Position numbers and translations under genes: made by a program
From: a bacterium
GTDB taxonomy: Bacteria; Hydrothermota; Hydrothermia; LBFQ01; DSFT01
Length of the DNA: 34,473 nt
Direction: 5' to 3'
Assembly: GCA_030550205.1 (NCBI GenBank)
Contig: JAUQPS010000009.1
Span: 1 to 34,473 of the forward strand
The notes under the pieces: generated by a model
The model's input: the letters and a program-made list of their open reading frames with translations, nothing else
The model's database searches: none
What the model was told of the DNA's origin: nothing
Shown: in pieces, positions 1 through 20,388 of the stretch
Numbering within the stretch: the first letter of the stretch is position 1
Layout of the letters: each line of letters opens with the position of its first letter

Positions 1-2336
1 GAGGGATAAAAAGATAAAAAGGTAAATCGGGGTTTTATCTGAACTATGTGGAATTTAAACAACAGATTAGATGCTTTAGTAATTGCTTATAACAAATGTT
101 TTATCTGAACTATGTGGAATTTAAACAATATTATCAAAAATTACAATATTCTCTATTTTATTTTGTTTTATCTGAACTATGTGGAATTTAAACTTATTTT
201 CTAAATATGAAATATAAGCTAATGCAATAAGTTTTATCTGAACTATGTGGAATTTAAACCTATTCCTTTAGAAAAACTGAATTTAAGTTTAGTGGTTTGT
301 TTTATCTGAACTATGTGGAATTTAAACTTAAATTCAACAACAACATATTCCAAATCCCTAAAATGTTTTATCTGAACTATGTGGAATTTAAACAGCGTAA
401 AATTTAAGTATGTTCCTATACATATTGTAGTGTTTTATCTGAACTATGTGGAATTTAAACTAATTTCTTCTCAAAAAAGTTTTTAATAGAAACTAAATGT
501 TTTATCTGAACTATGTGGAATTTAAACTCTTTCTCAAAAGGTTATCATTAGCGAAAGCAATATCAGTTTTATCTGAACTATGTGGAATTTAAACAGAGAG
601 TAGAACAAAGCATACAAAATTTCAAGAATTATAGTTTTATCTGAACTATGTGGAATTTAAACTTCGTTGAAAACTCTCTTTTAAGAAAAAGAGGCTTATT
701 GTTTTATCTGAACTATGTGGAATTTAAACAGTGTAAAATTTAAGGAAGATTTTGAAAGTTTTGAAAGTTTTATCTGAACTATGTGGAATTTAAACCAAAA
801 AGGAAGTGTAAATCCAAACCATCTGCATATTTGGTTTTATCTGAACTATGTGGAATTTAAACCACGTTAAAAATTGTTGATTACGCTTACAATGATAGAA
901 GTTTTATCTGAACTATGTGGAATTTAAACAAATTTTTCAAGTGAATAAACAGTGAAGACTATGTTTTGTTTTATCTGAACTATGTGGAATTTAAACTGGG
1001 CCCCGCCCAACATATCAATGTCAATACATACTGTTTTATCTGAACTATGTGGAATTTAAACAAAAAATTCAGTATCTTTTTGGGACTACTTTCAACAAGT
1101 TTTATCTGAACTATGTGGAATTTAAACGCTGTAATAAAGCTATCATTCTAAAAGGATTGAAATTTGTTTTATCTGAACTATGTGGAATTTAAACCTCTTT
1201 CTTTCAAGTTTTATGAACTGAGCAAAGATGAGTTTTATCTGAACTATGTGGAATTTAAACTTATTGTGTCAGCAAAAATATCTTCTGCTGTTGGGAGTTT
1301 TATCTGAACTATGTGGAATTTAAACACATAATAGTAATACAAAAGGAATGGAATGAAAAATTGTTTTATCTGAACTATGTGGAATTTAAACGTATAAGCA
1401 TTATTTTACGAAAAGATAATATAAAGCTGTTTTATCTGAACTATGTGGAATTTAAACTTTTTTCAAAAGCTTAGCATTATCAATGAAAGCAATAGTTTTA
1501 TCTGAACTATGTGGAATTTAAACATTAAATTTTGTAAAAAGTATTAGTTATTATAGCAATGTTTTATCTGAACTATGTGGAATTTAAACAAGTGCTCTTA
1601 AAGTGATGGGAAATAGTATAAAATAGTGTTTTATCTGAACTATGTGGAATTTAAACGAAGTGCAGGGAAGTAGGGTTTAACAAAGTAAAATCGTTTTATC
1701 TGAACTATGTGGAATTTAAACCATATTGAAAATAAGATAGACAATATTGTAATTTTTGTTTTATCTGAACTATGTGGAATTTAAACGTATTAAAGAAGTC
1801 AGGAATAGAATTAAAATTATGAGGTTTTATCTGAACTATGTGGAATTTAAACCTTCAAATTACGGGTTTCAAGGTTATTGCAAGTGATAGTTTTATCTGA
1901 ACTATGTGGAATTTAAACTTTAGAAGTTTTAATTCTTCAATGTTATCTTTATTACCGTTTTATCTGAACTATGTGGAATTTAAACGTATCATAACTTCTT
2001 TTTCTAATTGTTAGTGTCAAATGTTTTATCTGAACTATGTGGAATTTAAACCAAAATGAAAAAACTTCAAATCAGAATATATACATAGGTTTTATCTGAA
2101 CTATGTGGAATTTAAACTTAATTTCTCAAAAAAGTTTTTAATAGAAACTAATTCAGGTTTTATCTGAACTATGTGGAATTTAAACGCTCTTTTAGCCTTG
2201 CCATCGCCTTGCCTCCTTGCTCTGTTTTATCTGAACTATGTGGAATTTAAACATATGCATATTCTCCTACTTGATAGTAGCATATACCAGAATTTACTTT
2301 TATTTCAGTTTTATCTGAACTATGTGGAATTTAAGC
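1..2336 (+). CRISPR. CRISPR array, trailer-side part, 35 repeats
   Basis: Thirty-five copies of a 29-bp repeat that begins GTTTTATCTGAAC and ends GGAATTTAAAC. The first is at 32-60 and the last at 2308-2336. The flanking bases vary, which fixes the length at 29. The 34 complete spacers are 36-39 nt except the last, which is 55 nt (2253-2307). Bases 1-31 are part of another spacer, so the array continues left. All repeats look identical except the final one, which has AAGC in place of AAAC; a decayed end repeat marks the trailer. Transcription is therefore left to right, and the last eight bases, ATTTAAAC, would be the crRNA 5' tag, resembling the ATTGAAAC-type tags of other systems. The array points into the cmr operon on the same strand and probably serves both Cmr complexes. 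Cas6 is not in the window. Confidence 0.98.
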
Positions 2337-2880: not shown

Positions 2881-3249
2881 ATGAGGACTTTAAATCAAGA
2901 GAGGGGATTATATGCATTAGAAATAGTTAAAGAAGTAAAAAAGAAGCCGGACAAGGCTCAAAAGAAATACAAAAGCTATGCTAAAAAACTTCCTGCTCTC
3001 ATAGCCACCAATGGGCTTATAGCCACTCTTGCCTTTTTGAAATCAAAGAGTGATGCCAAAGATGTTTACGATTCTGTAGTTAGATGGTTGAAACAGCAAG
3101 AATATATAGAAAGTGAGGAAAATGGATTAGAAGAATTACTAAAAGTAGATTATCACAAGCTTCGTTTGGCAACTATGGAGGCTTTGGCTTTTGCCAGTTG
3201 GCTAAAAAGGATAGTGGAGATTGAGATAGAAGAGGATGAAAATGAATAG
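2881..3249 (+). CDS. cmr5: Cmr5, small subunit of type III-B complex (module A)
   Basis: A 122-aa small helical subunit of the Cmr effector, which fills the belly of the crRNA filament and contacts target RNA. Recognised by the family pattern: AKKLPALIATNGLIATLAF in the middle and LRLATMEALAFASWLKRIVE at the C-terminus, both matched by the other Cmr5 in this window. The length is normal for the family. An AGGAGG ribosome site lies nine bases before the ATG. The 3' end overlaps the start of cmr6, so the two are translationally coupled. It follows orf98 and opens the run cmr5-cmr6-csx1-cmr2-cmr1-cmr3-cmr4. Compared with its paralogue in module B it lacks about 75 residues between the first helix and the AKKLP motif; that extra part is the unusual state. 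Confidence 0.93.
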   Translation: MRTLNQERGLYALEIVKEVKKKPDKAQKKYKSYAKKLPALIATNGLIATLAFLKSKSDAKDVYDSVVRWLKQQEYIESEENGLEELLKVDYHKLRLATMEALAFASWLKRIVEIEIEEDENE

Positions 3250-4390
3250 GCATAGCAAAAGTAGGAGGGAAAGAAAGCATAAGATTAAGGGAAGTATTCG
3301 CTTTGGAAGTTGTAATGAGATCTTTCTCAGATATGAAGCTCCTGACGATCTCGTAGATAAAGATGAAGAGAATGTAAAGAATAAGTTCTTTGATAATGCA
3401 ATGAAACACCTTATAAGTAAGGGAGTAGATAGCTTGCCTTTACTGCTTAACAAGTATATTCCAATTCCTGATAATGCTGTGGAAGTTATCACAATAGAAG
3501 AGAAAAATGGTAATCCTAAGGAAAGCAGGAAAGACTTCCTTTCACTTAAAAAAGGTAAAATTATAGAGGAAGGAGTAAAGAGGTTATTCTATAATTCCTT
3601 ATTGAAGCATTTTAGGTATTCAGATCTAACAAAATCTACTATAAAAAACAGACTTGATGAAATTTTAAATACTTCAGAAAGCTCTGGATATGTAAAGGTC
3701 TTTGACAAAACTCTAAAAACTATATCTCCACTTGTCTGTGGGCTTGGGGCAACTCATATATTTGAGACTTCTATAACATTACACCACATATGGGGAGTTC
3801 CTTACATTCCGGGTAGTAGTCTAAAGGGTGTGTGTAGGCAGGTGGCCTTTTGGAAGCTTGTTGAAGAAAGAAAGTTATCAAAGGATGATTTGGAAGAGTT
3901 CCAAAAGAAATTTTATGGTGATTTAATCACCGATGATAAAGAAATTCTAAAATACCAGCTTTTGTTTGGAACGCAGGGCTTTAAAGGACTTTTGCTTTTC
4001 TTAGATGCCTATCCTGAAATACAAGATGGAAGTATAAAAGAACTATTTAAGCTTGACATTATGAATCCGCATTATAGCGAATACTATGGAGAGAAAAGAG
4101 ATATTCCGGGAGATTGGGAAAATCCTGTGCCAGTGTTTTTCCTTACGGTAAAAGAAGGGGTGTCTTTTAGGTTTGTGGTTCTCTTTGACGAATGCAGGTG
4201 GGAGGTGATAAAAAAGAAAGGAATACCTGATAAAGAAGGAAAGAGAAGGCAATTAGCTGATGAGGAAATAAAAGGGGTTGAAGAGTATATGGAAAGTGAG
4301 AAGTTTTATGAGGATATTATAGGGCAAGCTCTGGAGTTCTATGGAGTTGGTTCAAAAACAAGGCTTGGCTATGGATTGTTTAAAATATAA
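3242..4390 (+). CDS. cmr6: Cmr6, RAMP subunit capping the III-B backbone (module A)
   Basis: A 382-aa Cas7-like RAMP protein that sits at the distal end of the Cmr filament. The family signature is the block GLGATHIFETSITLHHIWGVPYIPGSSLKG, where the glycine-rich RAMP loop lies near the middle, followed by LLFGTQGFKGLLLFLDAYP, PGDWENPVPVFFLTVKEGV, and the C-terminal GVGSKTRLGYG loop. I placed the start at 3242 because AGAGG (3231-3235) is then six bases away; an in-frame ATG at 3236 would abut it. The gene overlaps the end of cmr5 and, at its 3' end, the start of csx1. The first 60 residues are rich in Lys and Arg (KSRRERKHKIKG), a likely RNA contact. Collinear with the Cmr6 of module B. Confidence 0.93.
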   Translation: MNRHSKSRRERKHKIKGSIRFGSCNEIFLRYEAPDDLVDKDEENVKNKFFDNAMKHLISKGVDSLPLLLNKYIPIPDNAVEVITIEEKNGNPKESRKDFLSLKKGKIIEEGVKRLFYNSLLKHFRYSDLTKSTIKNRLDEILNTSESSGYVKVFDKTLKTISPLVCGLGATHIFETSITLHHIWGVPYIPGSSLKGVCRQVAFWKLVEERKLSKDDLEEFQKKFYGDLITDDKEILKYQLLFGTQGFKGLLLFLDAYPEIQDGSIKELFKLDIMNPHYSEYYGEKRDIPGDWENPVPVFFLTVKEGVSFRFVVLFDECRWEVIKKKGIPDKEGKRRQLADEEIKGVEEYMESEKFYEDIIGQALEFYGVGSKTRLGYGLFKI

Positions 4391-5708
4391 ATATTATATA
4401 AAAATACTTGTAGCTGTATGGGGTAATTTCTCCGTTTGGAAGGATGCAAACTATAAGTATAAGAATGAAAAACATACTTCAAGTACCACTTTACCTTTAT
4501 TACTTGGTACAATAAATCCTAACTATACTTATATAATCTTGTCTGATACTTTAATGGATAAATACGATAAAATTTCCACATATCAAGAGGGTTTATCAAA
4601 AATAAAGAACGAGGCAGATGCTTTTATTAAAGAAAAAATAAGAAGCTATCCTACTAAACTAAAGGAAGATAACATAAATATTTTGATTTTGCCGGCTGTG
4701 GGCACTTTTTCAAGGTCAAGGTTTGTGGGAAATCCTAATAATTTCTATGCCTTGGTTTATTTTGAACTTGCAAGGAATATTCTAAGGAATTTGGGGTCTA
4801 AACTGGCATTTATAAGCGAAAATAATAAGCCTTGTTTAGAACTTTACCTTGATATAACTCATGGCTTGAACTTTATGACCATGATAACTTACAGGGCGGT
4901 AAAGGATATTTTGCAGATAATTGCCTATTTTTGTAATGTAAGACTAATAGTTTTGAATAGTGATCCTTTGGTGGGTAGTGGAAATATTGACTTGAATATC
5001 AACGAGATTGAGAAAATAAACGTAATACCAGCTTTTAACTTTTATAGGTATAGTGATACTATGCTTCTTATTCCAAGTCCAAGCGGGCATGAAGGTGTAA
5101 ACGCTCTTACAAAAAGGATGGATAGGCTTTATGCCTTTTGCAGTGCCTTTCTACATGGCTTGCCTGTTTATATGTATTATTTTTATGAAAAGCTTAAGGA
5201 AGATGAGATAGAAAGCATAGTTAAGCTGTTTTGCAATTATGTTCATATAAAGGTGAATGTTAATGGAACTTTTGAGATTATTCAAGGGTTAAACTTTGGC
5301 GAGAGTTTTATATCGCTTCTTCAAGGGTTTTTGCTGTCAAACCTTTTAGAATTTTTAAGGGTTGATGTTAAAGATGATGGAGCGATAAGAATGGATGATA
5401 TAGAGAGAATAAAGGGTATCTTTAAACATTCAAAAACAATCCTACAAAGGCTTGAAAGGGAGTTTGAAAAGATAGAAAAGAGAAAAAGACAGATAAGCTC
5501 TGAATTTAAGGACTATGGATTTTATGCAGAGGCCAATTATTCTCCTAATGATAACTTTGATGGGAGAAACTTTTTTGCTCACTGCGGCTTTGCGCATAAT
5601 CTAATTGAGGTGAAAAAGGAAGGAAATACCATATTTATTAAGCCAAAGCAAAGATTTATAGAGGAAATACATGAGGCTCTTTTGGAGAGCCTACCACTTG
5701 GAGGGTAG
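4371..5708 (+). CDS. csx1: Csx1-family CARF-HEPN ribonuclease (module A)
   Basis: Predicted cyclic-oligoadenylate-activated RNase, the downstream effector of Cmr2 signalling. The N-terminal half is CARF-like: a short beta strand KILVAVWGNFSVW after the start, then LDITHGLNFMTMITYRAV, a signature of the Csx1/MJ1666-type family. The C-terminal half carries the HEPN catalytic motif R399-N-F-F-A-H404, followed by CGFAHNLIEV. Length (445 aa) fits the family. I start at ATG 4371, which puts the first CARF strand close to the N-terminus; an in-frame ATG at 4341 would add ten residues and deepen the overlap with cmr6. Two bases separate its stop from cmr2, so it is co-made with the enzyme that should produce its ligand. 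Which ring size it binds cannot be read from sequence. Confidence 0.88.
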   Translation: MDCLKYKYYIKILVAVWGNFSVWKDANYKYKNEKHTSSTTLPLLLGTINPNYTYIILSDTLMDKYDKISTYQEGLSKIKNEADAFIKEKIRSYPTKLKEDNINILILPAVGTFSRSRFVGNPNNFYALVYFELARNILRNLGSKLAFISENNKPCLELYLDITHGLNFMTMITYRAVKDILQIIAYFCNVRLIVLNSDPLVGSGNIDLNINEIEKINVIPAFNFYRYSDTMLLIPSPSGHEGVNALTKRMDRLYAFCSAFLHGLPVYMYYFYEKLKEDEIESIVKLFCNYVHIKVNVNGTFEIIQGLNFGESFISLLQGFLLSNLLEFLRVDVKDDGAIRMDDIERIKGIFKHSKTILQRLEREFEKIEKRKRQISSEFKDYGFYAEANYSPNDNFDGRNFFAHCGFAHNLIEVKKEGNTIFIKPKQRFIEEIHEALLESLPLGG

Positions 5709-5710
5709 CT

Positions 5711-8266
5711 ATGGTACAGGATAATTATTCTGTGGATTATGTTTTGAAGTTAAAGGCTTTAATGCATGATCCTATATATAAAATATCTACTTTGGGAAGC
5801 GGTCATGAAAATATAGCGAAAGAACTTTATAAGCTTCTTATGAATGAAGAATATTCGGAAGATGGTAATTTGAAAAAAGCAGACCATATAAGCTCTGCTA
5901 TATCAAGGATAGTTGTAAAAGACGCACCTTGGGTTGATTTTGAAGAGTCTTATTTTATTGATCCTTTCACTCTTAAAAAAACCGAACCGATAAAAGCTCC
6001 AGAAAAAGAAGAAGATGTAAAAGATATTTTTAAAGAACTTGGAAACAAGCTTCAATGTAAAAATAATCCAAAGTTATGTTTTCTTTTCCTTTGGAGATTT
6101 CTGCCAGATATCTTTCCTTGGATAAAAAAACATCCTGCAGACTCAAGGGCTCCTAACCATTCCATATACGACCACCTTGTGCAAAGCTCTTGTATTGCCA
6201 CATGTCTTGACAAGGGAAATAAACCAGCCTTTTTGCTCTTTACCATTAGTCCTGTGCAATCCTTTGTTGCCATAGCCAGAAAAACTTCCGACCTTTGGGC
6301 TGGGAGTTATTTAATCTCTTATCTAATCTACAAGGCTATTGAAGTAATAATGGATGAGCTTGGACCAGACCATATTATCTTTCCTAATTTAAGAGGGCAA
6401 CCATTGGTGGATTTATGGCTTTATGAAAAGCATTTTAAAAACTTAAACATAGACAAAATTGGTGATTTTGATTTTGAAAAGCGGAAACATAAAGATAATC
6501 TTATAAATGATAAACTTCTTATTGCCAACTTTCCTAATAGATTTTTAGCCATAGTGCCTTATGGTAGGGCAAAAGATATAGCTAAGGAATGTCAAGAAGC
6601 CATAGGAAAGGCAATTGATGAGCTTTTGGAAAAGGTAGAAAGTTTAAATGATGATAAAGTAAAAGAAGAAGTTAAAAAAGTAAAGTATGTTATAAAGGAA
6701 CACCTTACCAAATATCTAAAAATTTATTGGGTAGTTTTGCCTTTTTATGAAAACAATTATACGGATGTTGAACCTATTCTTAAAGATTACAAAAATTTGA
6801 TAGTTGAAAGTGATTTATATAAGGTAGTTAAAACTATTGTATATAATCCTTACTATAAAAATTTAGGACCTAACGTGGGAAGTGCTTATTCTCTCCTTGT
6901 AGAGCTAACAGAAAGGTTTTTGGCAAGCAGAAAAGCAATAAGAGATTTTGAAGTAGTTAAAATAGATAAAGAAAGTATAAAGCAATGCCATCTTTGTGGC
7001 GAGTATGAGGTGCTTGATATAAAATGGGAAAATATTGGTAGGAAGTACGTAGGCGAGAGTGAAAGACTTTGTGGTATGTGCTTTTTCAAAAGGCTTTTGC
7101 CCAAGTTGATAGAAAACAAATTTGGTCTTGAATTAAAATTTCCATCTACTGCTGAAATGGCAACAGTAAAGTATAAGGAGGATCTATATATTGACCTGCG
7201 AAAAATTGAAAAATTTTTAGATAATTATAATCTACCAAAGACTGCAAGTGTGCCAAAGCTAAAAAACAAACCACTATACGACATTGATGGCCAATGGCTA
7301 ATGGAGTCATCATATAGAAAAGAATACCTTAAAAGGGAATATGGGATAAATGTTCCTGAGGAAGAGCTTGAGGAGATGAGAAAATTTTTGAATGAAAAGA
7401 AGATAAAACCACCTACTTATTATGCCATTCTTTCCGTAGATGGTGATAATATGGGTAAGTGGCTAAAGGGTGAATATTTACCGACGGTGGAAAAATTGCT
7501 TCATGAAAAGGTAAGAAATGAGCCAAAACTAACAGAGGATCAGAATATAAAGAGACTTCTTGAAAGCATTCATCCTATGTCTCCATCTTTCCATAACTTG
7601 TTTTCTAGAAGACTATCAGAGTTTGCTTTAGAAAGGGTAAGTAAAAGAGTAGAAAAGGTTTATTATGGCAAGCTTATTTATGCTGGCGGGGATGATGTAT
7701 TAGCCTTTTTGCCGGTAGATGAGGCTTTAAATTGTGCTTGTGATTTAAACAAGGCTTTTAAGATCTTGCTTGGAGAAAAGGCAAGCGTGAGTGCAGGGAT
7801 TGTTTTTGTCCATCATAAATATCCACTATCTTTGGCTTTGAGAGAGGTAAGAGATGCACAAAAGAGGGCAAAAAGGGATTATGGCCGTTCGGCAGTATGC
7901 ATAAAACAGATATCTGGCTCTGGTCAAGTTAGAACCACCGGGTTTAAGTGGGAAGACAAGGATTTCTTTGATAAGATTGTTGAAAAATACTCAAGGGAAG
8001 AGCTTTCTTCTAAGTTTGCTTATGACCTTGTGGATGTGGTGAGGATGTTACAAGGAAAAGAGAATAAGGTTAAGGATGAAACTCTTTCTATCTTGGAGAG
8101 GGAAATTAAGAGGTTATATAGGCGTAAAGTTTCTAAGGATAATGTGGATAAGGACTTTGAAGAGAAGCTTTTGAATACTATGAAAAGGTATAAAGATAAT
8201 ATACTGGCCTTTGCTGATATGTTGATAATTGCAAGGTTTGTGGCTAAGATGGGGGCAGAGGGATGA
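5711..8266 (+). CDS. cmr2: Cmr2/Cas10, cyclase and nuclease subunit (module A)
   Basis: An 851-aa large subunit that makes cyclic oligoadenylates and cuts DNA when target RNA is bound. The HD pair is H19-D20 in LKALMHDP, with a second ADH motif in the KADHISSA stretch. The conserved block HPADSRAPNHSIYDHLVQ follows, then a zinc finger CHLC (426-429) and CGMC (454-457). The first palm domain has AILSVDGDNMGKWL, and the second has the cyclase motif GGDD at 659-662. The C-terminus is helical (D4 domain). All catalytic motifs are present, so both activities should be intact. Codon use shows many AGG arginine codons, unlike the flanking chromosomal genes. It sits two bases after csx1 and overlaps cmr1 by ATGA. 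It is collinear with Cmr2 of module B along the whole length. Confidence 0.97.
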   Translation: MVQDNYSVDYVLKLKALMHDPIYKISTLGSGHENIAKELYKLLMNEEYSEDGNLKKADHISSAISRIVVKDAPWVDFEESYFIDPFTLKKTEPIKAPEKEEDVKDIFKELGNKLQCKNNPKLCFLFLWRFLPDIFPWIKKHPADSRAPNHSIYDHLVQSSCIATCLDKGNKPAFLLFTISPVQSFVAIARKTSDLWAGSYLISYLIYKAIEVIMDELGPDHIIFPNLRGQPLVDLWLYEKHFKNLNIDKIGDFDFEKRKHKDNLINDKLLIANFPNRFLAIVPYGRAKDIAKECQEAIGKAIDELLEKVESLNDDKVKEEVKKVKYVIKEHLTKYLKIYWVVLPFYENNYTDVEPILKDYKNLIVESDLYKVVKTIVYNPYYKNLGPNVGSAYSLLVELTERFLASRKAIRDFEVVKIDKESIKQCHLCGEYEVLDIKWENIGRKYVGESERLCGMCFFKRLLPKLIENKFGLELKFPSTAEMATVKYKEDLYIDLRKIEKFLDNYNLPKTASVPKLKNKPLYDIDGQWLMESSYRKEYLKREYGINVPEEELEEMRKFLNEKKIKPPTYYAILSVDGDNMGKWLKGEYLPTVEKLLHEKVRNEPKLTEDQNIKRLLESIHPMSPSFHNLFSRRLSEFALERVSKRVEKVYYGKLIYAGGDDVLAFLPVDEALNCACDLNKAFKILLGEKASVSAGIVFVHHKYPLSLALREVRDAQKRAKRDYGRSAVCIKQISGSGQVRTTGFKWEDKDFFDKIVEKYSREELSSKFAYDLVDVVRMLQGKENKVKDETLSILEREIKRLYRRKVSKDNVDKDFEEKLLNTMKRYKDNILAFADMLIIARFVAKMGAEG

Positions 8267-9471
8267 AGGAGATTAAACTAAGTTGTGAAGTGATTACTCC
8301 TTTGTTTATGGGCGGTGCTAATATGGAGCCTGAGATAAGGACGCAGTCTATAAATGGGGTTGTAAGATGGTGGTTTAGGACTTTGGGAGGTAGTAAAGAA
8401 GAAGAAAAGAAACTTTTTGGATGGACTGGACAAGAATCCAAGAAGGGTGCGGTGAAATTTGTGGTTTGTAAAGAACCTTATAATTCAAGAGATATACAAT
8501 CTTGCCTAGATAGTTCAAAAAATGGTTTGAATTATCTGGCCTTTTCCTTGAAAAGACAAAATAGACGATGTTTGGATGTAGGTTATAAGTTTGACTTAAG
8601 AATTATTTTCTCTACTATTTTAGAAGAAAAAGAAAAGAAAAAATTTTTGGGAGCGCTTTGGTGTGCTTTTTATTTGGGTAATTTTGGAAGTAGGGCAAGA
8701 AGAGGTTTTGGATCTATTATGGTAAGGGAAATTTCTGGTGATTTTGACAATTTTATTTCCTTTGATCCAAAAGGTGATATAAAAGGGTGGTTAAAGAGTA
8801 ATTATGAAGAAATAAAAAGGCTATTCCCAAAAGCTAACAATATAGAGGTTTACTCCTTTGAAAAAAGAGATGCTAAAACAGTCCAAGATTGGGTAAGTGA
8901 GATTCAACTTCGAAAAGGAATAGATAAACGGAAAATTCAAAAAGATAAGGGTAGTAAATGCTTTGTAGATGATTTTAACCAACAAGATTTAGGAGATTGG
9001 GATGGGTTGCTTAATCTTATGGGCTACACTTTAATGGCTTACAGGAAATGTTTAGGAAAATATGAAGTTCAAGTAGGGAAATATAAAGTTCAAGATTGCT
9101 ATTTTGCAAGGAATATAATACAAAGTCAAGGGAAACTACAAAATTTTACTGAAAAACCTATCATACAAAGAGCTATATTCGGTCTTCCTTTGAATTTTTA
9201 CTTTTTATCCATAAGGCAGGGAAATAATAGGGGAACAGTTTTTCCTGTAAAAGGAGGAGAAAAACTTCGCCGAGCATCGCCTTTAATATATAAGGTGATT
9301 AAAAACGAAGAAAAGTTGGAGGGCTTAATCATTTTTGTAATGGATAAGTTCTTGCCAGATGATGTTGATTTAGAACTAAATGGTGTAAAATTACAAAAGC
9401 CTGATTATACTCTTATTAAAGATTACCTACAAAGCTTGCAAGATAAAAAGATTATCGGGAGGCTTATCTGA
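8263..9471 (+). CDS. cmr1: Cmr1, RAMP subunit of type III-B complex (module A)
   Basis: A RAMP protein that binds near the 3' end of the crRNA and target. The family pattern is clear at the N-terminus: LSCEVITPLFMGGAN, then EIRTQSINGVVRWWFR and KKLFGW, then the glycine-rich YLGNFGSRARRGFGS. At 402 aa it is about 70 residues longer than Cmr1 of module B. The extra length lies mostly in the middle (about residues 200-295) and includes a 21-bp imperfect tandem duplication (9055-9075 and 9076-9096) encoding GKYEVQV then GKYKVQD. The start ATG overlaps the cmr2 stop (ATGA) and the stop shares one base with the cmr3 ATG (TGATG), so translation is coupled on both sides. Confidence 0.94.
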   Translation: MKEIKLSCEVITPLFMGGANMEPEIRTQSINGVVRWWFRTLGGSKEEEKKLFGWTGQESKKGAVKFVVCKEPYNSRDIQSCLDSSKNGLNYLAFSLKRQNRRCLDVGYKFDLRIIFSTILEEKEKKKFLGALWCAFYLGNFGSRARRGFGSIMVREISGDFDNFISFDPKGDIKGWLKSNYEEIKRLFPKANNIEVYSFEKRDAKTVQDWVSEIQLRKGIDKRKIQKDKGSKCFVDDFNQQDLGDWDGLLNLMGYTLMAYRKCLGKYEVQVGKYKVQDCYFARNIIQSQGKLQNFTEKPIIQRAIFGLPLNFYFLSIRQGNNRGTVFPVKGGEKLRRASPLIYKVIKNEEKLEGLIIFVMDKFLPDDVDLELNGVKLQKPDYTLIKDYLQSLQDKKIIGRLI

Positions 9472-10505
9472 TGTTGAAATTCACTATTAAGCCTATTGAT
9501 GTGGTGTTTTTTGGAAGTGGTAAGCCTTTTAACTTGGGGGGATTGGGAGAGAGTATATTTCCACCATTTCCAAACTCCTTTGCCAGTGCAATTTTTGCAA
9601 GGCTTTATGAGGAAGGAATTAAGAACCGTGAAGTATTTGAGAAAGTTTATGGTCCTTTCTTGGAAAAGGATGGTAAATATTACTTTCCTGCGCCTTGTGA
9701 TATAGTCAAGGAAAAGGGAGGCAGTAGGATAAAAGTTTATAAGCCAAGGGAGAGCTCTAATCTTATAAAAGTGGAAAATACAGACCTTGAAAATAAGATA
9801 AAGCTTATGCCTTGGATAAAGCCAGAGTGCCAAGAGGATTACGAACCTTTTAATGGTTTTATAAGCCTTGAAGGGCTTAAAAAGTGGTATTATGGAGAGA
9901 AAATAAATGCTTCTGATTTGCTTTCTGAAGACAGGATTTTTTATATAGAAGATAGAATTTCCATACGCATGGATGATAGCACTGGCACGGTAAAGGGAGA
10001 AGATGGGCTTTATAGGGTAAGGTTTATAAGGCTTGAAAAAGGATTTAGATTTGTCTTTTGGGTGGAACTAAACAACCAAACGCTTACGGAAGATGAAGCA
10101 CTAAAAATTTTCAACCAACATCCAAAGGTCCTAAAGATCGGTGGAGAGGCAAGAACTGCCACTTGTGAAGTGGAAAAAGATGATTTTAAAGATTTATTTA
10201 AAGATTTTCGCTCTAATAATCAAGATAAAAGCTATAAAATTCTTTTTTTAACACCGGGAGTTTTTGAGGAAGAAAAACCAATACTTAACCATTTTGAAAA
10301 TTTAGAATATGCCTGTATTTCTGGATATACTCTTTTATCTATTAGGTCAAAGCATAATTATGGAAACAAAGTTATCCGTGCTATAAAGCCGGGGAGTGTG
10401 TTTGTGATAAAGGATAAGAATTTATCCATACCTATTGACTTTTACAAGCCATCTAATAATTTCATAGGTTCAAATCTTATTTTAGTTAAAAAAGGAGGGA
10501 TTTAA
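9471..10505 (+). CDS. cmr3: Cmr3, Cas5-like subunit of type III-B complex (module A)
   Basis: A 344-aa Cas5-like protein that holds the 5' tag of the crRNA next to Cmr2. Recognised by the opening FTIKPIDVVFFGSGKPFN, then FPPFPNSFASAIFARL, the YGPFLEKDGKYYFPAPCDIV block, EDRISIRMDDSTGTVKG and the late KIGGEARTATCEVE and PGSVF motifs. Its length is normal. A one-base overlap with cmr1 and one untranslated base before cmr4 keep it in the operon. The closest relative in the window is the Cmr3 of module B, which shares the same opening and the same order of motifs but differs in the central region. If the array serves both complexes, both Cmr3 proteins must read the same ATTTAAAC tag. Confidence 0.94.
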   Translation: MLKFTIKPIDVVFFGSGKPFNLGGLGESIFPPFPNSFASAIFARLYEEGIKNREVFEKVYGPFLEKDGKYYFPAPCDIVKEKGGSRIKVYKPRESSNLIKVENTDLENKIKLMPWIKPECQEDYEPFNGFISLEGLKKWYYGEKINASDLLSEDRIFYIEDRISIRMDDSTGTVKGEDGLYRVRFIRLEKGFRFVFWVELNNQTLTEDEALKIFNQHPKVLKIGGEARTATCEVEKDDFKDLFKDFRSNNQDKSYKILFLTPGVFEEEKPILNHFENLEYACISGYTLLSIRSKHNYGNKVIRAIKPGSVFVIKDKNLSIPIDFYKPSNNFIGSNLILVKKGGI

Positions 10506-10506
10506 C

Positions 10507-11424
10507 ATGTATAAAGATTTTGGGATTTTGACATATTATACCTTAACTCCTTTGCATATGGGGTCGGGCAGTAGCGTGCATTATGTAGATTTGACCATCC
10601 AAAGGGAAAGACATACTTCCTTTCCTATAATGGCTGGTAGTGGTATAAAGGGGGTTTTGAGAGATTATGCTAAAATAAAATGGAATGATAATAGCTTGGT
10701 AGATGAGATCTTTGGTTATGAAGATGGAAATAAAGGAGCTTCTATGGTTGCTTTTACTGATGCCAAAATTCTTTTATATCCTGTGCGTAGCTTAAAGGGG
10801 ACTTTTGCTTGGATTACTTGTCCTTTAGTGCTAAAAAGGTTCAAAGAGGAGCTAAAAAGCTTAGGTAAAACAGAAGATACAAACTGGGATGTGCCAAACC
10901 TTGATCCTGATAAGGATAAAGCTTTGGTAAGTAAGGATTCATCCTTGGTAATTGATGATAAATCTATCGGACTTGAAGAGTTTGTATTTGATTGTGAAAA
11001 GAGTGAAAATGTGGATAATATAGCAAAAGCTATAAAGGAATATCTACCACATACAAGCACGGTTAATGAGTTATCTAAAAGGTTAGTGGTAGTTGGTGAT
11101 AATGTCTTTACAGACTTTGTAAACTATGCAGTAGAGATTAGAACAAGGATTAGGATAGACCAAGAGACTGGAACGGTAAAAGAAGGCGCTCTTTTTACTA
11201 TAGAATTTGTGCCATCGGAGGCAATTTTTTATAGTTTTGTGTTTTTTGTGGAGAGAAAGAAGGATGATAGCTTAGACGTAAGGACGAAGTTTGAAGAGCT
11301 TTTTAGCTCCGAAGATAAAGATAAAGCAAACAAAGATAAAGTAAAGGAGTTGGTGCTTCAATTTGGTGGAGATGAAACCATAGGAGCGGGTTTTACAAAG
11401 GTTAGATATAATACGCTTAAGTAA
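10507..11424 (+). CDS. cmr4: Cmr4, backbone RNase subunit of type III-B complex (module A)
   Basis: A Cas7-like protein that multimerises along the crRNA and cuts target RNA at six-base intervals. The opening YTLTPLHMGSGSSVHYVD is typical, and Asp28 in VDLTIQRERHT aligns with the catalytic Asp26 of Pyrococcus furiosus Cmr4, so slicing should be active. The RAMP loop AGSGIKGVLRD follows, and the C-terminal LQFGGDETIGAGFTKV is also conserved. An AAAGGAGGG ribosome site lies upstream of the ATG. It is the last gene of module A. Its 3' end overlaps the 3' end of the convergent sigma-factor gene by eight bases, and I see no terminator there, so the transcripts may interfere. Confidence 0.95.
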   Translation: MYKDFGILTYYTLTPLHMGSGSSVHYVDLTIQRERHTSFPIMAGSGIKGVLRDYAKIKWNDNSLVDEIFGYEDGNKGASMVAFTDAKILLYPVRSLKGTFAWITCPLVLKRFKEELKSLGKTEDTNWDVPNLDPDKDKALVSKDSSLVIDDKSIGLEEFVFDCEKSENVDNIAKAIKEYLPHTSTVNELSKRLVVVGDNVFTDFVNYAVEIRTRIRIDQETGTVKEGALFTIEFVPSEAIFYSFVFFVERKKDDSLDVRTKFEELFSSEDKDKANKDKVKELVLQFGGDETIGAGFTKVRYNTLK

Positions 11425-12259: not shown

Positions 12260-12278
12260 ATTACCCCCTTATAGTATA

Positions 12279-12307
12279 ATTATAGGGGCATAGTTTTAAT
12301 TTGTCAA
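12279..12307 (-). promoter_or_regulatory. Consensus sigma-70 promoter of the sigma-factor gene
   Basis: Reading the minus strand: TTGACA (12307-12302), 17-base spacer, TATAAT (12284-12279), then a leader of about a dozen bases with GGGGG just before the ATG at 12259. This is the textbook housekeeping consensus at ideal spacing and it is much stronger than the other promoters I can see here. An imperfect palindrome with CCCC and GGGG ends (12265-12288) overlaps the -10 and the predicted start of transcription. It would be a natural operator for repression. Confidence 0.85.
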
Positions 12308-12312
12308 CCCCC

Positions 12313-12420
12313 CTTTAAAATTTCAAAAAACTTGAATTTAAAATGGAAATTATGAAAGAGTTTTATCAACAAATTGTAAATCAAAAATTGAGTTTGTGTC
12401 TGATTTAAAATTTAAAACTT
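12313..12420 (+). promoter_or_regulatory. Promoter region of the zinc peptidase gene, with a short upstream ORF
   Basis: Three copies of the local promoter element stand in the plus direction: CTTTAAAATTTC at 12313-12324, TTTAAAAT at 12337-12344 and ATTTAAAATTTA at 12403-12414. The last has its TAAAAT core nine bases before the ATG at 12421, so that transcript would be leaderless; there is no Shine-Dalgarno. The middle one has TAAAAT seven bases before an ATG at 12352 that opens an 18-codon ORF (MKEFYQQIVNQKLSLCLI, 12352-12408). This could be a leader peptide or noise. The region is shared with the divergent sigma promoter. Confidence 0.55.
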
Positions 12421-13389: not shown

Positions 13390-13832
13390 TAGTTAAAAGG
13401 CATTATAAAAAGAATGTATTTCCTATTAATGAATTTTCTTTAAAAAGTAAAAAGTTTAAAGATGTCTCTTATTATTTTCAGGAACAAGTTTTAACTTTAA
13501 AAAATTTTACTTTCCACTATCATTTTAAAATAATAAAATTTTGGAAAGGATTTAGGATTATGTCATTACATTTTATTTTTGTTTTCGATGCTATTTCAAA
13601 AAGTGGTAGTTCTTATAAGTGTTTCATTTCTTATGAAAATTCAATAATGGAAGTGCCATTATCATTAGCTTTAAAAATCATTGATAAAACAATAAAAACA
13701 ATCATTGAAAATGATAATTTTGATAATGAAGAAAAGGCAAATTTAGAAAAACTTATTAGTAAAGCTTTTGCTAGATTTAGAATGAATATGCCTTTTATAG
13801 CTATAAGCTTAGGTAGGGAATCAGATGATTAA
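13386..13832 (+). CDS. Protein of unknown function between peptidase and cmr3
   Basis: A 148-aa protein starting at GTG 13386, chosen because GGGAGG (13373-13378) sits seven bases upstream and GTGA overlaps the peptidase stop; a TTG at 13371 would lie inside the ribosome site. I do not recognise the family. The N-terminal half is aromatic and beta-rich (FTFHYHFKIIKFWKGF, then LHFIFVFDAIS), and the C-terminal half has helices with NFDNEEKANLEKLISKAFARF. There is no membrane segment or Cys cluster. Its ATG-overlap arrangement with both peptidase and cmr3 makes it part of the module B operon. By position it could be the peptidase's substrate, inhibitor or partner, or an anti-sigma factor; nothing in the sequence proves any of these. 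Confidence 0.75.
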   Translation: MIVKRHYKKNVFPINEFSLKSKKFKDVSYYFQEQVLTLKNFTFHYHFKIIKFWKGFRIMSLHFIFVFDAISKSGSSYKCFISYENSIMEVPLSLALKIIDKTIKTIIENDNFDNEEKANLEKLISKAFARFRMNMPFIAISLGRESDD

Positions 13833-14871
13833 GTTTATTTTAAAGCCTTTTGATGTTTTATTTTTTGGAAGTGGAAAACCTTTTAATTTTAGTGTTCAAG
13901 AAGCATCTTCAATATTTCCATCATTTCCAAATACCTTAGCCTCTTCAATATGTAGTAAAATTTTAGTTGAGAAAGGGATAGATATATCAAGAATAATTAA
14001 AAAGTTCTATGGTCCTTTTTTGGAAAAAAACAATAAAATTTTATTTCCAAAACCACTTGATATTCTTCGTGAGAAGAAGAAAGAAAATGGAGAAATAATT
14101 GTAGGAAAATTATTAAAAAAATTTAGACTAATTAATCCCTCCTATATTGATTCTCAAAACAATTTAAAAGCACTTTTATGGATAGGTAAGCATAATAAGA
14201 ATTTTGAAATTTTTAAAGGATTTATAACCCTACATGGCTTAAAAAAATGGTTAAATAATAGTGAAGTTTCCAGAGAGGATTTAGTTGACGAGAATGAAAT
14301 TTTTGAATTTGAGTCAAGAATTGGAATTAAAATGGATTATTTTAGAAATGTTACAAAAGAAGAAGATGCTATATATAGAATCAACTTCGTAAGATTGAAG
14401 AATGATACAAAAATAGTATTTTTTGTTGAATTTGATTATAATGAAGATAAAATTTTTGAATTTTTTGATAAAAATCCAATAAAAGTTTTAAAACTTGGTG
14501 GTGAAATGAGAAGTGTAAGCTATGAAGTAAGCAAAACAGATATAAATCAAGAATTCAATTTCAGAAAACCAGAAATAAATGAAAATGACATTATAAAAAT
14601 CCTATATTTAACTCCAGGCTCTCTAGATAAAGCCGATAGCTCATTAGAAATTCTTACTGGTGCTGTTTTGACTATCAATTTAGCAAAGTTATCAAAACAT
14701 ACAAAAGAAAGGAAAATCAAAAGAGGACTGGTGCCCGGAAGTGTAATTTACGCGAAAGTCAAGGACAAAAACAAAGTAGAAAATTTCTGGCTAAATCCAC
14801 AAGATGATGATTTTATTGGCACAAATTTAAAAATTTACACAAAAGTTAAGGGGGTGGATGAATATGTTTAA
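13825..14871 (+). CDS. cmr3: Cmr3, Cas5-like subunit of type III-B complex (module B)
   Basis: A 348-aa crRNA-tag-binding subunit. It opens with FILKPFDVLFFGSGKPFNFS, followed by IFPSFPNTLASSI, FYGPFLEKNNKILFPKPLDI, ESRIGIKMDYFRN, VLKLGGEMRSVSYEVS and PGSVIYA, the same motif order as Cmr3 of module A. The start ATG overlaps the orf148 stop by eight bases and has an AGGTAGGG ribosome site just upstream. It is the first effector gene of module B, whereas in module A cmr3 comes near the end. The gene is more AT-rich than its module A counterpart (AGA and AAA codons dominate), closer to the flanking chromosome. Confidence 0.94.
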   Translation: MIKFILKPFDVLFFGSGKPFNFSVQEASSIFPSFPNTLASSICSKILVEKGIDISRIIKKFYGPFLEKNNKILFPKPLDILREKKKENGEIIVGKLLKKFRLINPSYIDSQNNLKALLWIGKHNKNFEIFKGFITLHGLKKWLNNSEVSREDLVDENEIFEFESRIGIKMDYFRNVTKEEDAIYRINFVRLKNDTKIVFFVEFDYNEDKIFEFFDKNPIKVLKLGGEMRSVSYEVSKTDINQEFNFRKPEINENDIIKILYLTPGSLDKADSSLEILTGAVLTINLAKLSKHTKERKIKRGLVPGSVIYAKVKDKNKVENFWLNPQDDDFIGTNLKIYTKVKGVDEYV

Positions 14872-15940
14872 AGAAAAGTTAGTCTTGACCTTCTATGCCC
14901 AAACACCGGTTCATATGGGTTCGGGCACAAGTGTTTCTTATGTTGATAATCCTATTCAAAGAGAAAAACATACAGACTATCCAATTCTTGCAGGAAGTGG
15001 AATCAAAGGGGTCATAAGAGATCTAGCAGAGAGAATATGGAATGATAAAAATAAAGTAAATGTAATTTTCGGACCAGAAGATGGAGCAGAAGAATTCGCT
15101 TCCTGTATCTCTTTTACCGATGCAAAAATTCTGCTTTATCCTGTTCGTTCTGTAAGAGGAGTATTTGCTTATATAACATGTCCTTATGTTTTAAGGAGAT
15201 TTAAAAATGAGCTAAGTAGCTTGGAGATGGATAGTTTGCCAGAAATTTCAGAGTTGGATAGTAAAAAAGATGATAACAAAATTTTTGTTTGTCGTGATTC
15301 AGAATTGAAAATTGATAATAACAAAGTTGCACTTGAAGAATTTGTTTTTGATGTTGATAATTCTAAAAATATTGATGAGTTAGCAAATATTCTTTCTAAA
15401 TTTTTGCCGGATGAAATAAAAAAAGAAGATTTCTTTAAAAAGCATTTTGCCATTGTATCAGATAATGTTTTTAGGGATTTTACAAAATATGCAATAGAAA
15501 TAAGGACAAGGATAAGAATTGAACAAAGTACGGGCACAGTTGCACAAGGGGCGCTATTTTCAATTGAGCTTGTTCCTTCTGAAAGTGTTTTCTACGCGTT
15601 TTTGTTTATAACTAATCCAAGATTTGGAATTGATGAGAAAATATATAGACAGTTAGAGGAACTCAAAAGTAAAGGAAAATCTTGGGAAAGTGTTTTGGGA
15701 GAAGTAAAAGAAGCAGGGGAATTGAACGAAAAAGATAAAGATGAAAGAATAAAGAAGGCTTATGAAGGCGGGTACTTTTCAAGCGATGAGATCAAAAATG
15801 AATTAGAAAAACTTCTCAAAGATAACAATATAATTCAACTTGGCGGAGATGAGACTTTGGGAATGGGGATAATGAAGGTGAAATGTTTGGATAAAGATGA
15901 AGGTTCGCAAACTCAAAATCAACAGGGGGTTCGGTCGTGA
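14864..15940 (+). CDS. cmr4: Cmr4, backbone RNase subunit of type III-B complex (module B)
   Basis: A 358-aa Cas7-like slicer subunit. Opens LTFYAQTPVHMGSGTSVSYVD; with the start at 14864 the catalytic Asp in VDNPIQREKHT is residue 28, exactly as in the other Cmr4. I prefer ATG 14864 over 14858 because AGGGGG (14849-14854) is then nine bases away rather than three. AGSGIKGVIRD and the C-terminal IQLGGDETLGMGIMKV are conserved. It is about 50 residues longer than the module A protein, mostly a charged helical insertion before the C-terminal motif (KSWESVLGEVKEAGELNEKD region) and a short polar tail. It overlaps cmr3 upstream and the GTG start of cmr1 downstream. Confidence 0.95.
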   Translation: MFKEKLVLTFYAQTPVHMGSGTSVSYVDNPIQREKHTDYPILAGSGIKGVIRDLAERIWNDKNKVNVIFGPEDGAEEFASCISFTDAKILLYPVRSVRGVFAYITCPYVLRRFKNELSSLEMDSLPEISELDSKKDDNKIFVCRDSELKIDNNKVALEEFVFDVDNSKNIDELANILSKFLPDEIKKEDFFKKHFAIVSDNVFRDFTKYAIEIRTRIRIEQSTGTVAQGALFSIELVPSESVFYAFLFITNPRFGIDEKIYRQLEELKSKGKSWESVLGEVKEAGELNEKDKDERIKKAYEGGYFSSDEIKNELEKLLKDNNIIQLGGDETLGMGIMKVKCLDKDEGSQTQNQQGVRS

Positions 15941-16935
15941 AAAAAATTTCGTTAAGTTGTAAAATCATTACGCCTTTATTTATGGGTGGAGCGGAACAGC
16001 AAGCAGAATTGAGAACTCAATCTTTTAATGGGTTATTCAGATACTGGTTTAGGTTGCTTGGTGGAAGTTTTGAAGATGAGAAAAGATTGTTTGGATGGGG
16101 AGGGGAGAAGGCAAATAAAGGAGTTGTTAGAATTAGGGTAATAAAAGAAGGAGATATTAATCCTTATCAAGTTACTCACCGAGAACCAACGGGATATAGG
16201 TATTTGGGATTTTCTTTGCAATTGACTGAAAGAAACGGAATAAAAGTTCCATACTATTTTAAAATTTTATTTTCCTTTCATCCAATAGCTACGGATGAAG
16301 ATATTAAAAAATTCCTTTGTGCTGTCTGGTGTGCTTTTTATCTTGGAAATTTTGGGAGTAGAAGCAGGAGAGGATTTGGTTCAATAATGGTTGAAGATAT
16401 AGAGGGGGATATCCCAAGTGGGTTTAATTTGAAATTCAAACCGCAAGGAGATATAGGAAATTGGATAAAGGAGCAATTAAATTATATCAAGGGCTTAAAC
16501 TATTGGAAAGCAAGAAAAGATATTCCATATGTGTTTGAGAATTTAGAAATATATCGCTTTTTCCAGTCTAAACGATACTGCTTTGAAATGTTACATGAAA
16601 TGGGAACCAGATATAGATATTATAGACAAAATCTCCGTTTTCACGAGAGGATATGGTTTGGTTTACCAATTTTGCCAAAAATTAAGGAAGCTCGTCGTGC
16701 TTCACTTTTAATTTTTAAAACTATCCAAAGTAATTCTAATTTTGAGGGATTTATCTTAGTGTTCAAACCAAATGAAAAACATGATTTTAAATTCTTACCG
16801 GATGAAGCGAAAATAAATTTAAAAGGGGTTAATTTAAACATGCCAAGATGGGAGGTTTTAAATGATTTTATGCGAAGTTTAGAAGACTTAAATTTAATAA
16901 AGAAAATTTATCCATCAAAGGAGGTAGAGTTATGA
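15937..16935 (+). CDS. cmr1: Cmr1, RAMP subunit of type III-B complex (module B)
   Basis: A 332-aa RAMP subunit, close to the usual length of smaller Cmr1 proteins. The start is GTG overlapping the cmr4 stop (GTGA), preceded by CAGGGGGTT as ribosome site. Motifs: LSCKIITPLFMGGAE, ELRTQSFNGLFRYWFRLLGG, KRLFGWGGE, then AFYLGNFGSRSRRGFGSI, all matched in the module A copy. The C-terminal part is shorter and diverged (RHEAR-type elements replaced by KIKEARRASLLIFK). In module B it lies between cmr4 and cmr5, while in module A it follows cmr2. This is one of the two differences in gene order between the modules. The stop overlaps the cmr5 start by four bases. Confidence 0.93.
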   Translation: MKKISLSCKIITPLFMGGAEQQAELRTQSFNGLFRYWFRLLGGSFEDEKRLFGWGGEKANKGVVRIRVIKEGDINPYQVTHREPTGYRYLGFSLQLTERNGIKVPYYFKILFSFHPIATDEDIKKFLCAVWCAFYLGNFGSRSRRGFGSIMVEDIEGDIPSGFNLKFKPQGDIGNWIKEQLNYIKGLNYWKARKDIPYVFENLEIYRFFQSKRYCFEMLHEMGTRYRYYRQNLRFHERIWFGLPILPKIKEARRASLLIFKTIQSNSNFEGFILVFKPNEKHDFKFLPDEAKINLKGVNLNMPRWEVLNDFMRSLEDLNLIKKIYPSKEVEL

Positions 16936-17531
16936 ACCAAATTAAAACATTAAATCAGAAGAGAGCAAAACTCTGTCTTATTTGTGTAGAAAGGATAAAA
17001 CTTTTGAAGGAAGGAAAATGGAAGGAGCTTTCCGATGAGAGTGTTAAGGATTTCTTGCCTTCAATTTATGATGAATTTGAGAAATTTAAAAATTTTGATG
17101 GAGCAAAGAAAGAAGCGTATAGATTATTTGAAAGAGAATTGAAAAAGGAAGAAAACAGAAATAAGAAGGAAGAAAAAGTATATGAAGATTTTAGGATAAA
17201 CTTTGAAGGTTTTAACTATACAGATGATTATTCTTCTCATGCTAAAAGGCTTCCCCCAATGATTGTTTCAAATGGTTTAATTCCTACACTTGCTTTTTAT
17301 AAATCAAAGGGAAAAGATAGAGGACAAATTTATCAAGACATCTCGGAAATACTTGAAGCTTTAGAATTTAAACCTTACTGCGAATGGAAAAGTAAAAACC
17401 AAAATAAAGGGCTTCTTGAATTTCTGTTAGATATAGATGCTAACACTTTAAGGCTTGTCACAATGGAAGTACTTTCAATTGCAAATTGGTTAAAAAGAAT
17501 AGTAGAGGTTGAATTGGAGGAGAGAGAATGA
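16932..17531 (+). CDS. cmr5: Cmr5 with a long insertion (module B)
   Basis: Small subunit of the Cmr complex, 199 aa instead of the usual 120-150. The first helix (TLNQKRAKLCLICVERI) and the core from HAKRLPPMIVSNGLIPTLAFYKSK to LRLVTMEVLSIANWLKRIVE match Cmr5 of module A. Between them lies an extra segment of about 75 residues (roughly 25-100), highly charged and probably helical, with runs such as EKFKNFDGAKKEAYRLFERE. It may extend the helical bundle or bind a partner. The ATG overlaps the cmr1 stop and an AAGGAGG site lies upstream. A very short ORF and 76 bases separate it from cmr6, the only real gap in the module. Confidence 0.92.
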   Translation: MNQIKTLNQKRAKLCLICVERIKLLKEGKWKELSDESVKDFLPSIYDEFEKFKNFDGAKKEAYRLFERELKKEENRNKKEEKVYEDFRINFEGFNYTDDYSSHAKRLPPMIVSNGLIPTLAFYKSKGKDRGQIYQDISEILEALEFKPYCEWKSKNQNKGLLEFLLDIDANTLRLVTMEVLSIANWLKRIVEVELEERE

Positions 17532-17590
17532 TAAAAATAGACATAAACAAAAGCATAGAGATTTTTAAAAGCCTTTTGAAGCTTACATAG
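17528..17590 (+). CDS. Possible 20-aa ORF between cmr5 and cmr6
   Basis: An ATG overlapping the cmr5 stop (ATGA) opens a 20-codon frame (MIKIDINKSIEIFKSLL and three more) ending in TAG at 17590. A GGAGG site lies seven bases before the ATG, in the end of cmr5, so ribosomes could restart here. No homology can be judged at this length. It may be the stub of a lost gene, a tiny translated peptide that couples cmr5 to cmr6, or chance. Confidence 0.25.
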   Translation: MIKIDINKSIEIFKSLLKLT

Positions 17591-17607
17591 AATATGGAGG
17601 ATTTGAA

Positions 17608-18705
17608 ATGGAAGAAAAAAGATTTGAAGTTAGAGGGAAAATATGGTGGGGCTTAATCAAAAAAATTGACAGTATTAAAAAAGATAGAAACGAGGAAAAA
17701 GCAAAGGAAAAATTTATTACTGAAAATTTTCCTAAGGAAATAGAAAATTTTTCACTTTTTCTGAATAAATATGTTCCAATTATAGACGCACAAGTTAAAG
17801 ATACCATAAAAAATAAAGAGGAAGTTTGGTTTAGTATTAAAGAAAGTTGTATTGGTGAAGATAGCAAAAAGCCATTCTTGAAGGGGTTGATAGACAGATT
17901 TAACAATAATAACAAATTTAAACAAAGATTTAAAAAGTTTGATGAAATTATTGAATCAATAAAAGTTTCACTAACTCGGCAAGGATATGAGTTAGTTTAT
18001 TCAGATAAATTACAAACCAAATCTCGTCTCATCATTGGACTTGGTTCTTCTCATGTTCTTGAAACCTCAATAGCTTTACATCACATTTATGGAATTCCTT
18101 ATATCCCTGCAAGTGCTTTAAAAGGTGTTTGTAGAACAGTTACTTTTTGGAATGCTGTTAATGAAAGAAAAGGAATTTTAAATGACAAAGAGCAATTTGA
18201 GGAATTTCAAAAGAAATATTATGGCAAGTTATGTCCCGATAAAGATATTTTAAAATATCAACTTCTCTTTGGGGCGCAGAATTTTAAAGGTCTTTTACTA
18301 TTTCTTGATGCGTATCCTGTTATTGAGGAAAATCAGCAGGTTTTTGACTTAGATATTATGAGCGTGCATTATCAAAGTTATTATAAGGATAACTCTGGAA
18401 AAACTCCGCCGGGTGATTGGGAAAATCCAAGACCAATTGTGTTTCTGACCGTCAAAGAAGGAGTAAAATTCAAATTCAATGTACTTTTTGATAAGTTCAG
18501 AGCAAATGAGATTTTAAAAATGGATAATGAAGCTTTGAAGAAAATAATGCCTGATATAGAACCTGAGATAGTCAGGGATTTATTGGGAGAATTTGGGAGG
18601 GGTCAGAATAATTTAAAGGGGAAGATAAAAAATTTACTTGAAGAAGCCTTAAGAGAGTTCGGTGTAGGAGCAAAAACAAAGTTGGGTTATGGAATATTTG
18701 AATGA
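17608..18705 (+). CDS. cmr6: Cmr6, RAMP subunit capping the III-B backbone (module B)
   Basis: A 365-aa RAMP protein collinear with Cmr6 of module A. Signature blocks: IGLGSSHVLETSIALHHIYG followed by IPYIPASALKGVCRTV, KYQLLFGAQNFKGLLLFLDA, PPGDWENPRPIVFLTVKEGV and the C-terminal FGVGAKTKLGYG loop. The N-terminal extension differs: FEVRGKIWWGLIKKI rather than the basic KSRRERKHK start. A TGGAGG ribosome site stands upstream. The last 17 bases overlap the start of csx3, tying the ring nuclease to the effector operon. Confidence 0.93.
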   Translation: MEEKRFEVRGKIWWGLIKKIDSIKKDRNEEKAKEKFITENFPKEIENFSLFLNKYVPIIDAQVKDTIKNKEEVWFSIKESCIGEDSKKPFLKGLIDRFNNNNKFKQRFKKFDEIIESIKVSLTRQGYELVYSDKLQTKSRLIIGLGSSHVLETSIALHHIYGIPYIPASALKGVCRTVTFWNAVNERKGILNDKEQFEEFQKKYYGKLCPDKDILKYQLLFGAQNFKGLLLFLDAYPVIEENQQVFDLDIMSVHYQSYYKDNSGKTPPGDWENPRPIVFLTVKEGVKFKFNVLFDKFRANEILKMDNEALKKIMPDIEPEIVRDLLGEFGRGQNNLKGKIKNLLEEALREFGVGAKTKLGYGIFE

Positions 18706-19015
18706 TTTCATAAAATTTTCGGTAAAAAAGAAGGATGATTTCACTTTAATTGAATTTGAACTTTTGAGAGAACTTGAGCCTTCTGATTTGGAGAATATAA
18801 AGCCTCCTGATCCTGTAAAAGAGGGTTTTTCATCAAGTGCAATTATTTTATCGGGAAGAGGTCCGATATGGTTATACGGTTATTTGATTCATTTTTATCA
18901 TCCGGTAAGGGCGATTGCGATATTTGATCCGAGGTTAGATGGGGCGGTTGTGATTGAGACACATTCAAGAAATTTTAAAGTTGGGGAGGTAATAAAAAGG
19001 GAGGAGTTTGAATGA
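18689..19015 (+). CDS. csx3: Csx3/Crn3, ring nuclease for cyclic tetra-adenylate
   Basis: A 108-aa protein of the Csx3 family, which binds and linearises cA4 in a manganese-dependent way and so switches off CARF effectors. The core SGRGPIWLYGYLIHFYHP followed by AIAIFDPRLDGAVVIETHS is diagnostic. H71 and D80 have the same nine-residue spacing as the catalytic H60 and D69 of Archaeoglobus fulgidus Csx3. The N-terminus FTLIEFELLRELEP also fits. The start is uncertain: ATG 18689 overlaps cmr6, and a TTG at 18698 would give a more typical length. It is followed by csx1 with an ATGA overlap, so the on-switch target and the off-switch are made together. Module A has no such gene. Confidence 0.93.
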   Translation: MEYLNDFIKFSVKKKDDFTLIEFELLRELEPSDLENIKPPDPVKEGFSSSAIILSGRGPIWLYGYLIHFYHPVRAIAIFDPRLDGAVVIETHSRNFKVGEVIKREEFE

Positions 19016-20376: not shown

Positions 20377-20388
20377 AGGAGGTGGGCC

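Follow-up and report, generated by a model that had tools for sequence, protein, structure and literature searches.

The window, that is the whole 34,473-nt stretch of DNA that was analysed, is contig C186 of a WOR-3 genome of 1.89 Mb in 210 contigs. The host is assigned to candidate division WOR-3 on its PurL protein, which shares 78% identity with the PurL of one WOR-3 genome, against 47% for the next best match. Because this genome is 86% complete with 6.7% contamination, some contig may belong to another organism. The window begins with a CRISPR array, which is followed by two type III-B operons; their positions and those of the spacers discussed here are summarized in Table 1. The array is cut at the left, where the contig starts within a partial spacer. 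Thirty-three of its spacers have lengths of 36–39 nt, and the last, W33, has 55 nt. The last repeat (2308–2336) has one change, and together with the 55-nt spacer this supports a trailer end at the right. A reading of the window made from the sequence alone (the sequence-only reading) had placed one spacer of interest, W6, near the leader and another, W31, close to the trailer. The second placement is supported by this trailer end; no leader is present in the window. A second array lies on contig C5 of the same genome. Its repeat is identical to that of the window array and its terminal repeat is also mutated. The direction of the crRNA is inferred from two features, the mutated terminal repeat that each array has and the 3′ end of the repeat, which we take to resemble that of type I-B repeats.

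Table 1. Positions of the array, selected spacers and type III-B operons in the window
Feature	Position	Strand	Description
CRISPR array	32..2336	+	35 repeats of 29 nt (GTTTTATCTGAACTATGTGGAATTTAAAC); 34 complete spacers, named W0–W33
Spacer W1	127..164	+	Opposite-orientation partner of W25 (27/29)
Spacer W6	461..498	+	38 nt; complement reads LVSIKNFFEKKL
Spacer W7	528..565	+	Same-orientation partner of W21, with a 3-nt indel; adjoins W6
Spacer W21	1458..1494	+	Partner of W7
Spacer W25	1722..1757	+	Partner of W1
Spacer W28	1919..1956	+	Reverse complement of C5 spacer A7, exact over 36 nt
Spacer W31	2118..2156	+	39 nt; complement reads ELVSIKNFFEKL; 29-nt exact block common with W6
First type III-B operon	2881..11424	+	Cmr5, Cmr6, Csx1-like CARF-HEPN, Cmr2/Cas10, Cmr1, Cmr3, Cmr4
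Second type III-B operon	13825..23016	+	Cmr3, Cmr4, Cmr1, Cmr5, Cmr6, Csx3/Crn3 ring nuclease, CARF-HEPN, Cmr2/Cas10

Both III-B operons contain Cas10/Cmr2 with Cmr1 and Cmr3–Cmr6 (PADLOC and NCBIfam matches), and no Cas6 or Cas1 was found among the proteins scanned in the first. The two operons are separated (11417–13832) by a sigma-70-family gene read from the other strand, by a protein without a Pfam match that has an HExxH-like stretch, and by an unknown 153-residue ORF. A third effector system is found elsewhere in the genome. Contig C174 carries a type I-B (Tneap-like) locus in which Cas8b, Cas7, Cas5, Cas6 and Cas3 are all present together with Cas11b, the Cas3 being the HD part, cut by the contig end. 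The Cas6 on C174 is the one match in the genome. No match to the Cas3 core over the cut-off was found in the genome, and none to Cas1 (at 86% completeness). Between cas7 and cas5 on C174 (L077 1374–2960) lie two further genes, one ATPase-like with a PADLOC PDC-S01 match and the other AbiEii-like. As the genome has two III-B operons and, in its type I-B locus, only one Cas6, both arrays are probably used by I-B and III-B alike. This one Cas6 would probably cut the crRNAs of the array, and these would probably go both to the I-B DNA-targeting complex and to the two III-B RNA-targeting complexes. For the latter, a spacer would have to be antisense to a transcript to be of use.

Spacers W6 and W31 lie within the 35-repeat array exactly where the sequence-only reading had put them. 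They had been described as sharing an identical core of 26 bases. An identical core is present, but it extends over 29 nt (TTCTCAAAAAAGTTTTTAATAGAAACTAA) rather than 26, as the alignment allows more than one position for the 3-nt gap. The remaining differences are as described, i.e. one 3-nt indel and the bases at the edges. W31 carries extra bases at both ends that are absent from W6. Since the edge bases differ and extend differently, W31 is no simple copy of W6. CRISPR arrays can duplicate repeat-spacer units, and the two might on that basis be one spacer that was duplicated within the array and later changed. Yet the extra bases at both ends of W31 and the 3-nt indel argue against such an origin, as does the finding that the spacers adjoining W6 and W31 are not duplicated, and we consider it very improbable.

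The complements of W6 and W31 encode the peptides reported for them, LVSIKNFFEKKL and LVSIKNFFEKL respectively, yet the other strand is open as well. Each strand has one frame that is open in both spacers, and on the other strand this reads NFFSKKFLIETK and NFSKKFLIETNS. The sole aligned edge mismatch falls at codon position 3 in either open frame. As both strands are open, the coding strand of W6/W31 is only weakly favored.

We aligned the 48 spacers of both arrays locally in all pairs (match 1, mismatch −2, gap −3/−1). The null was provided by 100 dinucleotide-shuffled sets of all 48 spacers, in which the best pair in any set scored 15. Four pairs exceed this value: W28/A7 with 36, W6/W31 with 29, W1/W25 with 23 and W7/W21 with 16, the last being marginal against the shuffle maximum. 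The null represents unrelated sequence of equal composition, and it cannot separate re-acquisition from paralogy. W6/W31 and W7/W21 are in the same orientation, both with a 3-nt indel, and W28/A7 and W1/W25 are in opposite orientations. W28 and A7 are reverse complements at 36 of 36 positions, beyond which A7 extends by one base and W28 by two. The same segment was therefore inserted both ways in two arrays with the same repeat.

The sequence-only reading held that a clean loss of a codon implies a translated target. In favor of this, the indel is of 3 nt in both of the two gapped pairs, which would suit translation, though two indels are few. Both of the two differences in W1/W25 fall at position 3 in the frame NKIENIVIF / HIENKIDNIVIF, but the other strand has an open frame for which the same is true. 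Against it, the differences between W7 and W21 are not mainly at the third position, falling at codon positions 2, 2, 3, 2 and 3 in the presumed frame. We judge the target to be probably coding.

W6 and W31 might have come, in a single infection or several, from paralogous copies inside one element, for example members of a gene family or a repeat. Such copies would also yield same-site pairs with small indels. The odds of this are lowered by the pairing of four separate sites, and by the identity of W6 and W31 over 29 nt with a single 3-nt indel, and we think it unlikely. We consider it likely that W6/W31 reflects re-acquisition from diverged versions of one element, into an array that is probably common to I-B and III-B. 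One short segment, probably of a protein-coding viral gene, would have been acquired twice, independently and at different times, from two diverged versions of one invader. The array would have repeatedly resampled the same sites of related elements, giving W6/W31, W7/W21, W1/W25 and W28 with A7, and spacers would have been taken in either orientation. The earlier suggestion that the host met two versions of one sequence separately is supported to this extent, as independent acquisitions of what is probably coding sequence. Under re-acquisition, a host from an uncultured phylum would have met relatives of the same elements as these diverged. With pairs in both orientations, the array is an ordinary history of repeated infection and does not prove that RNA alone is targeted.

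The ends of the segments agree within 1–3 bases in three of the four pairs. The starts are ≤2 bases apart in three of four, for which P is about 0.018 if overlapping picks are uniform, a post hoc value from four pairs. The near-identical boundaries suggest a fixed selection signal, which would be testable once target genomes are known. Because the segment ends nearly agree in these three pairs, adaptation might preferentially re-capture the segment of an old spacer from a diverged escape variant, i.e. a site-anchored renewal of obsolete spacers in which cuts would be made at nearly the same bases and insertion would occur in either orientation. We regard this as a doubtful extension. In the probable order of acquisition, the newer members of the pairs (W1, W6 and W7) and the older (W21, W25 and W31) cluster in the array with P about 0.11, which is not significant.

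The strand of the spacers was examined with a codon-usage score trained on 17 genes of the window, which gave the right strand in 80% of 2,000 fragments (nine C5 phage genes). We scored 50 sequences: the 34 W spacers, 13 spacers of the C5 array (without A13), one partial spacer and two junctions. A3 lacks an open frame and was counted as sense. With the host table 27 were called antisense and 23 sense, or 20 and 14 respectively at a margin >3 bits. The phage table gave 26 of 50 as antisense. W6 scores 4.5 antisense versus 1.4 sense with the host table and W31 scores 5.3 versus 1.5, and with the phage table W6 scores 2.4 on each of the two strands. The host table favors the antisense reading of W6/W31, whereas the phage table scarcely does.

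These data bear on whether the array serves RNA targeting only, with spacers selected antisense to transcripts. Two III-B operons, which encode Cas10, CARF-HEPN proteins and a ring nuclease, adjoin the array, the host codon table gives W6/W31 and W7/W21 higher scores as antisense, and spacer A-1 of the C5 array is antisense to a phage gene, gpF (see below). Yet whatever the direction of the transcript, one member of each opposite-orientation pair cannot pair with an mRNA from one strand. The sequence-only reading had taken the spacers to be antisense, as RNA targeting requires. For the array as a whole that does not hold, because the opposite frame of W6/W31 is open, two pairs are in opposite orientation, just 27 of 50 sequences are called antisense, and the only Cas6 found in the genome sits in a type I-B effector locus. 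RNA-only targeting is thus improbable. An array beside a type III operon is no basis for a strand argument when the same genome holds a type I system at another site.

Array sharing, mixed strands and acquisition in either orientation have already been published, in passages of Vink 2021 (PMC8482600) and Silas 2017 (PMC5576922). Passages of the former describe arrays and adaptation common to type I and type III with mixed strands, and give mean coding-strand shares of 55% for I-B and 65% for III. The present genome is similar to what those passages describe in having I-B and III-B effectors together, with III-B lacking Cas6 and Cas1 among the proteins scanned, and in having spacers on both strands with an antisense excess that is at most weak. 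It differs in that two III-B operons adjoin one array here, and that we suggest sharing from the effector genes, where the main criterion in those passages is PAM compatibility. In passages of Silas 2017 (PMC5576922), the type III-B system of Marinomonas mediterranea acquires spacers in either orientation. As here, there are III-B spacers in both orientations, some of which cannot pair with mRNA, and type I and III systems in one cell. However, the M. mediterranea III-B system has its own RT-Cas1 according to the same passages, whereas no Cas1 was found in our genome, and its partner is I-F rather than I-B. A literature search combining WOR-3 with type III-B yielded no paper on these arrays; in its single match the two terms stand apart.

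We searched for the sources of the paired spacers. The proposed search with W6, W31 and their peptide gave no protospacer in viral, phage, plasmid or relative-genome sequences. The exact 26-mer of W6/W31 has no match in viral_contigs, and with 3 mismatches it recovers just its own two copies in the array among 147 genomes of the phylum. The patterns for W28/A7 and W1/W25 are likewise absent from viral_contigs, and W28/A7 is found in the 147 genomes as its two array copies only. A 10-residue pattern gave no match in genome_contigs, and none of the matches to a 7-residue pattern reaches the full peptide in the 80 of 86 stretches scanned. The whole array gave weak or repeat-like matches only against phages and plasmids. 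Among 150 relatives it matches six genomes including its own, the other five over 33–58 bases at 80–91%. As W6/W31, W28/A7 and W1/W25 gave no protospacer, we judge that their members come from the same element, and from coding sequence, on the spacers themselves.

Several candidate matches were rejected. Among phages (137 records), W31 has its best blastn match in the endonuclease of a Pelagibacter phage, at 90% over 31 bases, and this was judged to be chance. A degenerate 9-residue pattern matched twice in viral_contigs (L025 and L026), neither match lying in frame inside a listed ORF. L026 scores 22 against W6 with a shuffle maximum of 17, having been selected by the pattern itself. The best DNA match from the 7-residue pattern, in L234 among the 80 of 86 stretches scanned, covers 22 nt, and is mostly the 21-nt pattern that selected it. 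Spacer peptides were also compared with the phage genes of C5 and C49. The self-match of A-1 aside, the 55-nt W33 gave the two highest scores, 44 and 40, where three rounds of shuffled spacers reached at most 39; neither was accepted as a match. Contigs C200, C65, C201 and C180, which match the phage region weakly, look like host chromosome. Neither viral_contigs nor the other 99 genomes searched yielded a relative of the phage tape-measure protein.

One protospacer was mapped. The C5 array runs, exactly at a repeat boundary, into a Mu F-like gene (PF04233) that has no start, and the complete 538-residue gpF gene is present in two IMG/VR contigs, L079 and L080. The 38 bases beside the C5 repeat, spacer A-1 (L009 8202–8239 = C5:14201–14238), match L080 10000–10037 at 38/38 and L079 at 37/38. 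The simplest reading of these sequences is that the assembler walked from spacer A-1 into its phage protospacer, so that C5 would be chimeric there. A-1 is antisense to the gpF gene of this Mu-like phage, and the match indicates that the arrays of the host draw on tailed phages. By analogy with A-1, and from general knowledge of CRISPR arrays, the source of W6/W31 is probably viral. GCC or CCA lies just 5′ of the likely start of the A-1 spacer, but with an uncertain boundary and a single mapped protospacer this gives no PAM.

Contig C49 ends in a lone repeat (L010 4992–5058) beside phage-like amidase and RusA genes, and an open frame runs from the repeat in the sense direction. This end could possibly be a second bridge from spacer to protospacer. 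The amidase has a best identity of 45% among 80 of 86 relatives, which is of no help with the junction. Spacer A13 (C5:13278–13314), at the trailer end, matches several contigs of its own genome over 33–36 bases at 86–92%. One such match is in the window at 26065–26098, antisense to a DUF3782/PD-(D/E)XK gene (28/37 ungapped). Spacer A3 (C5:13937–13974) includes a palindrome of 22 nt that is found at many sites of the host genome. The spacer also matches phage contig L079 over 19 nt directly after gpF. The palindrome is perhaps a terminator-like dispersed repeat.
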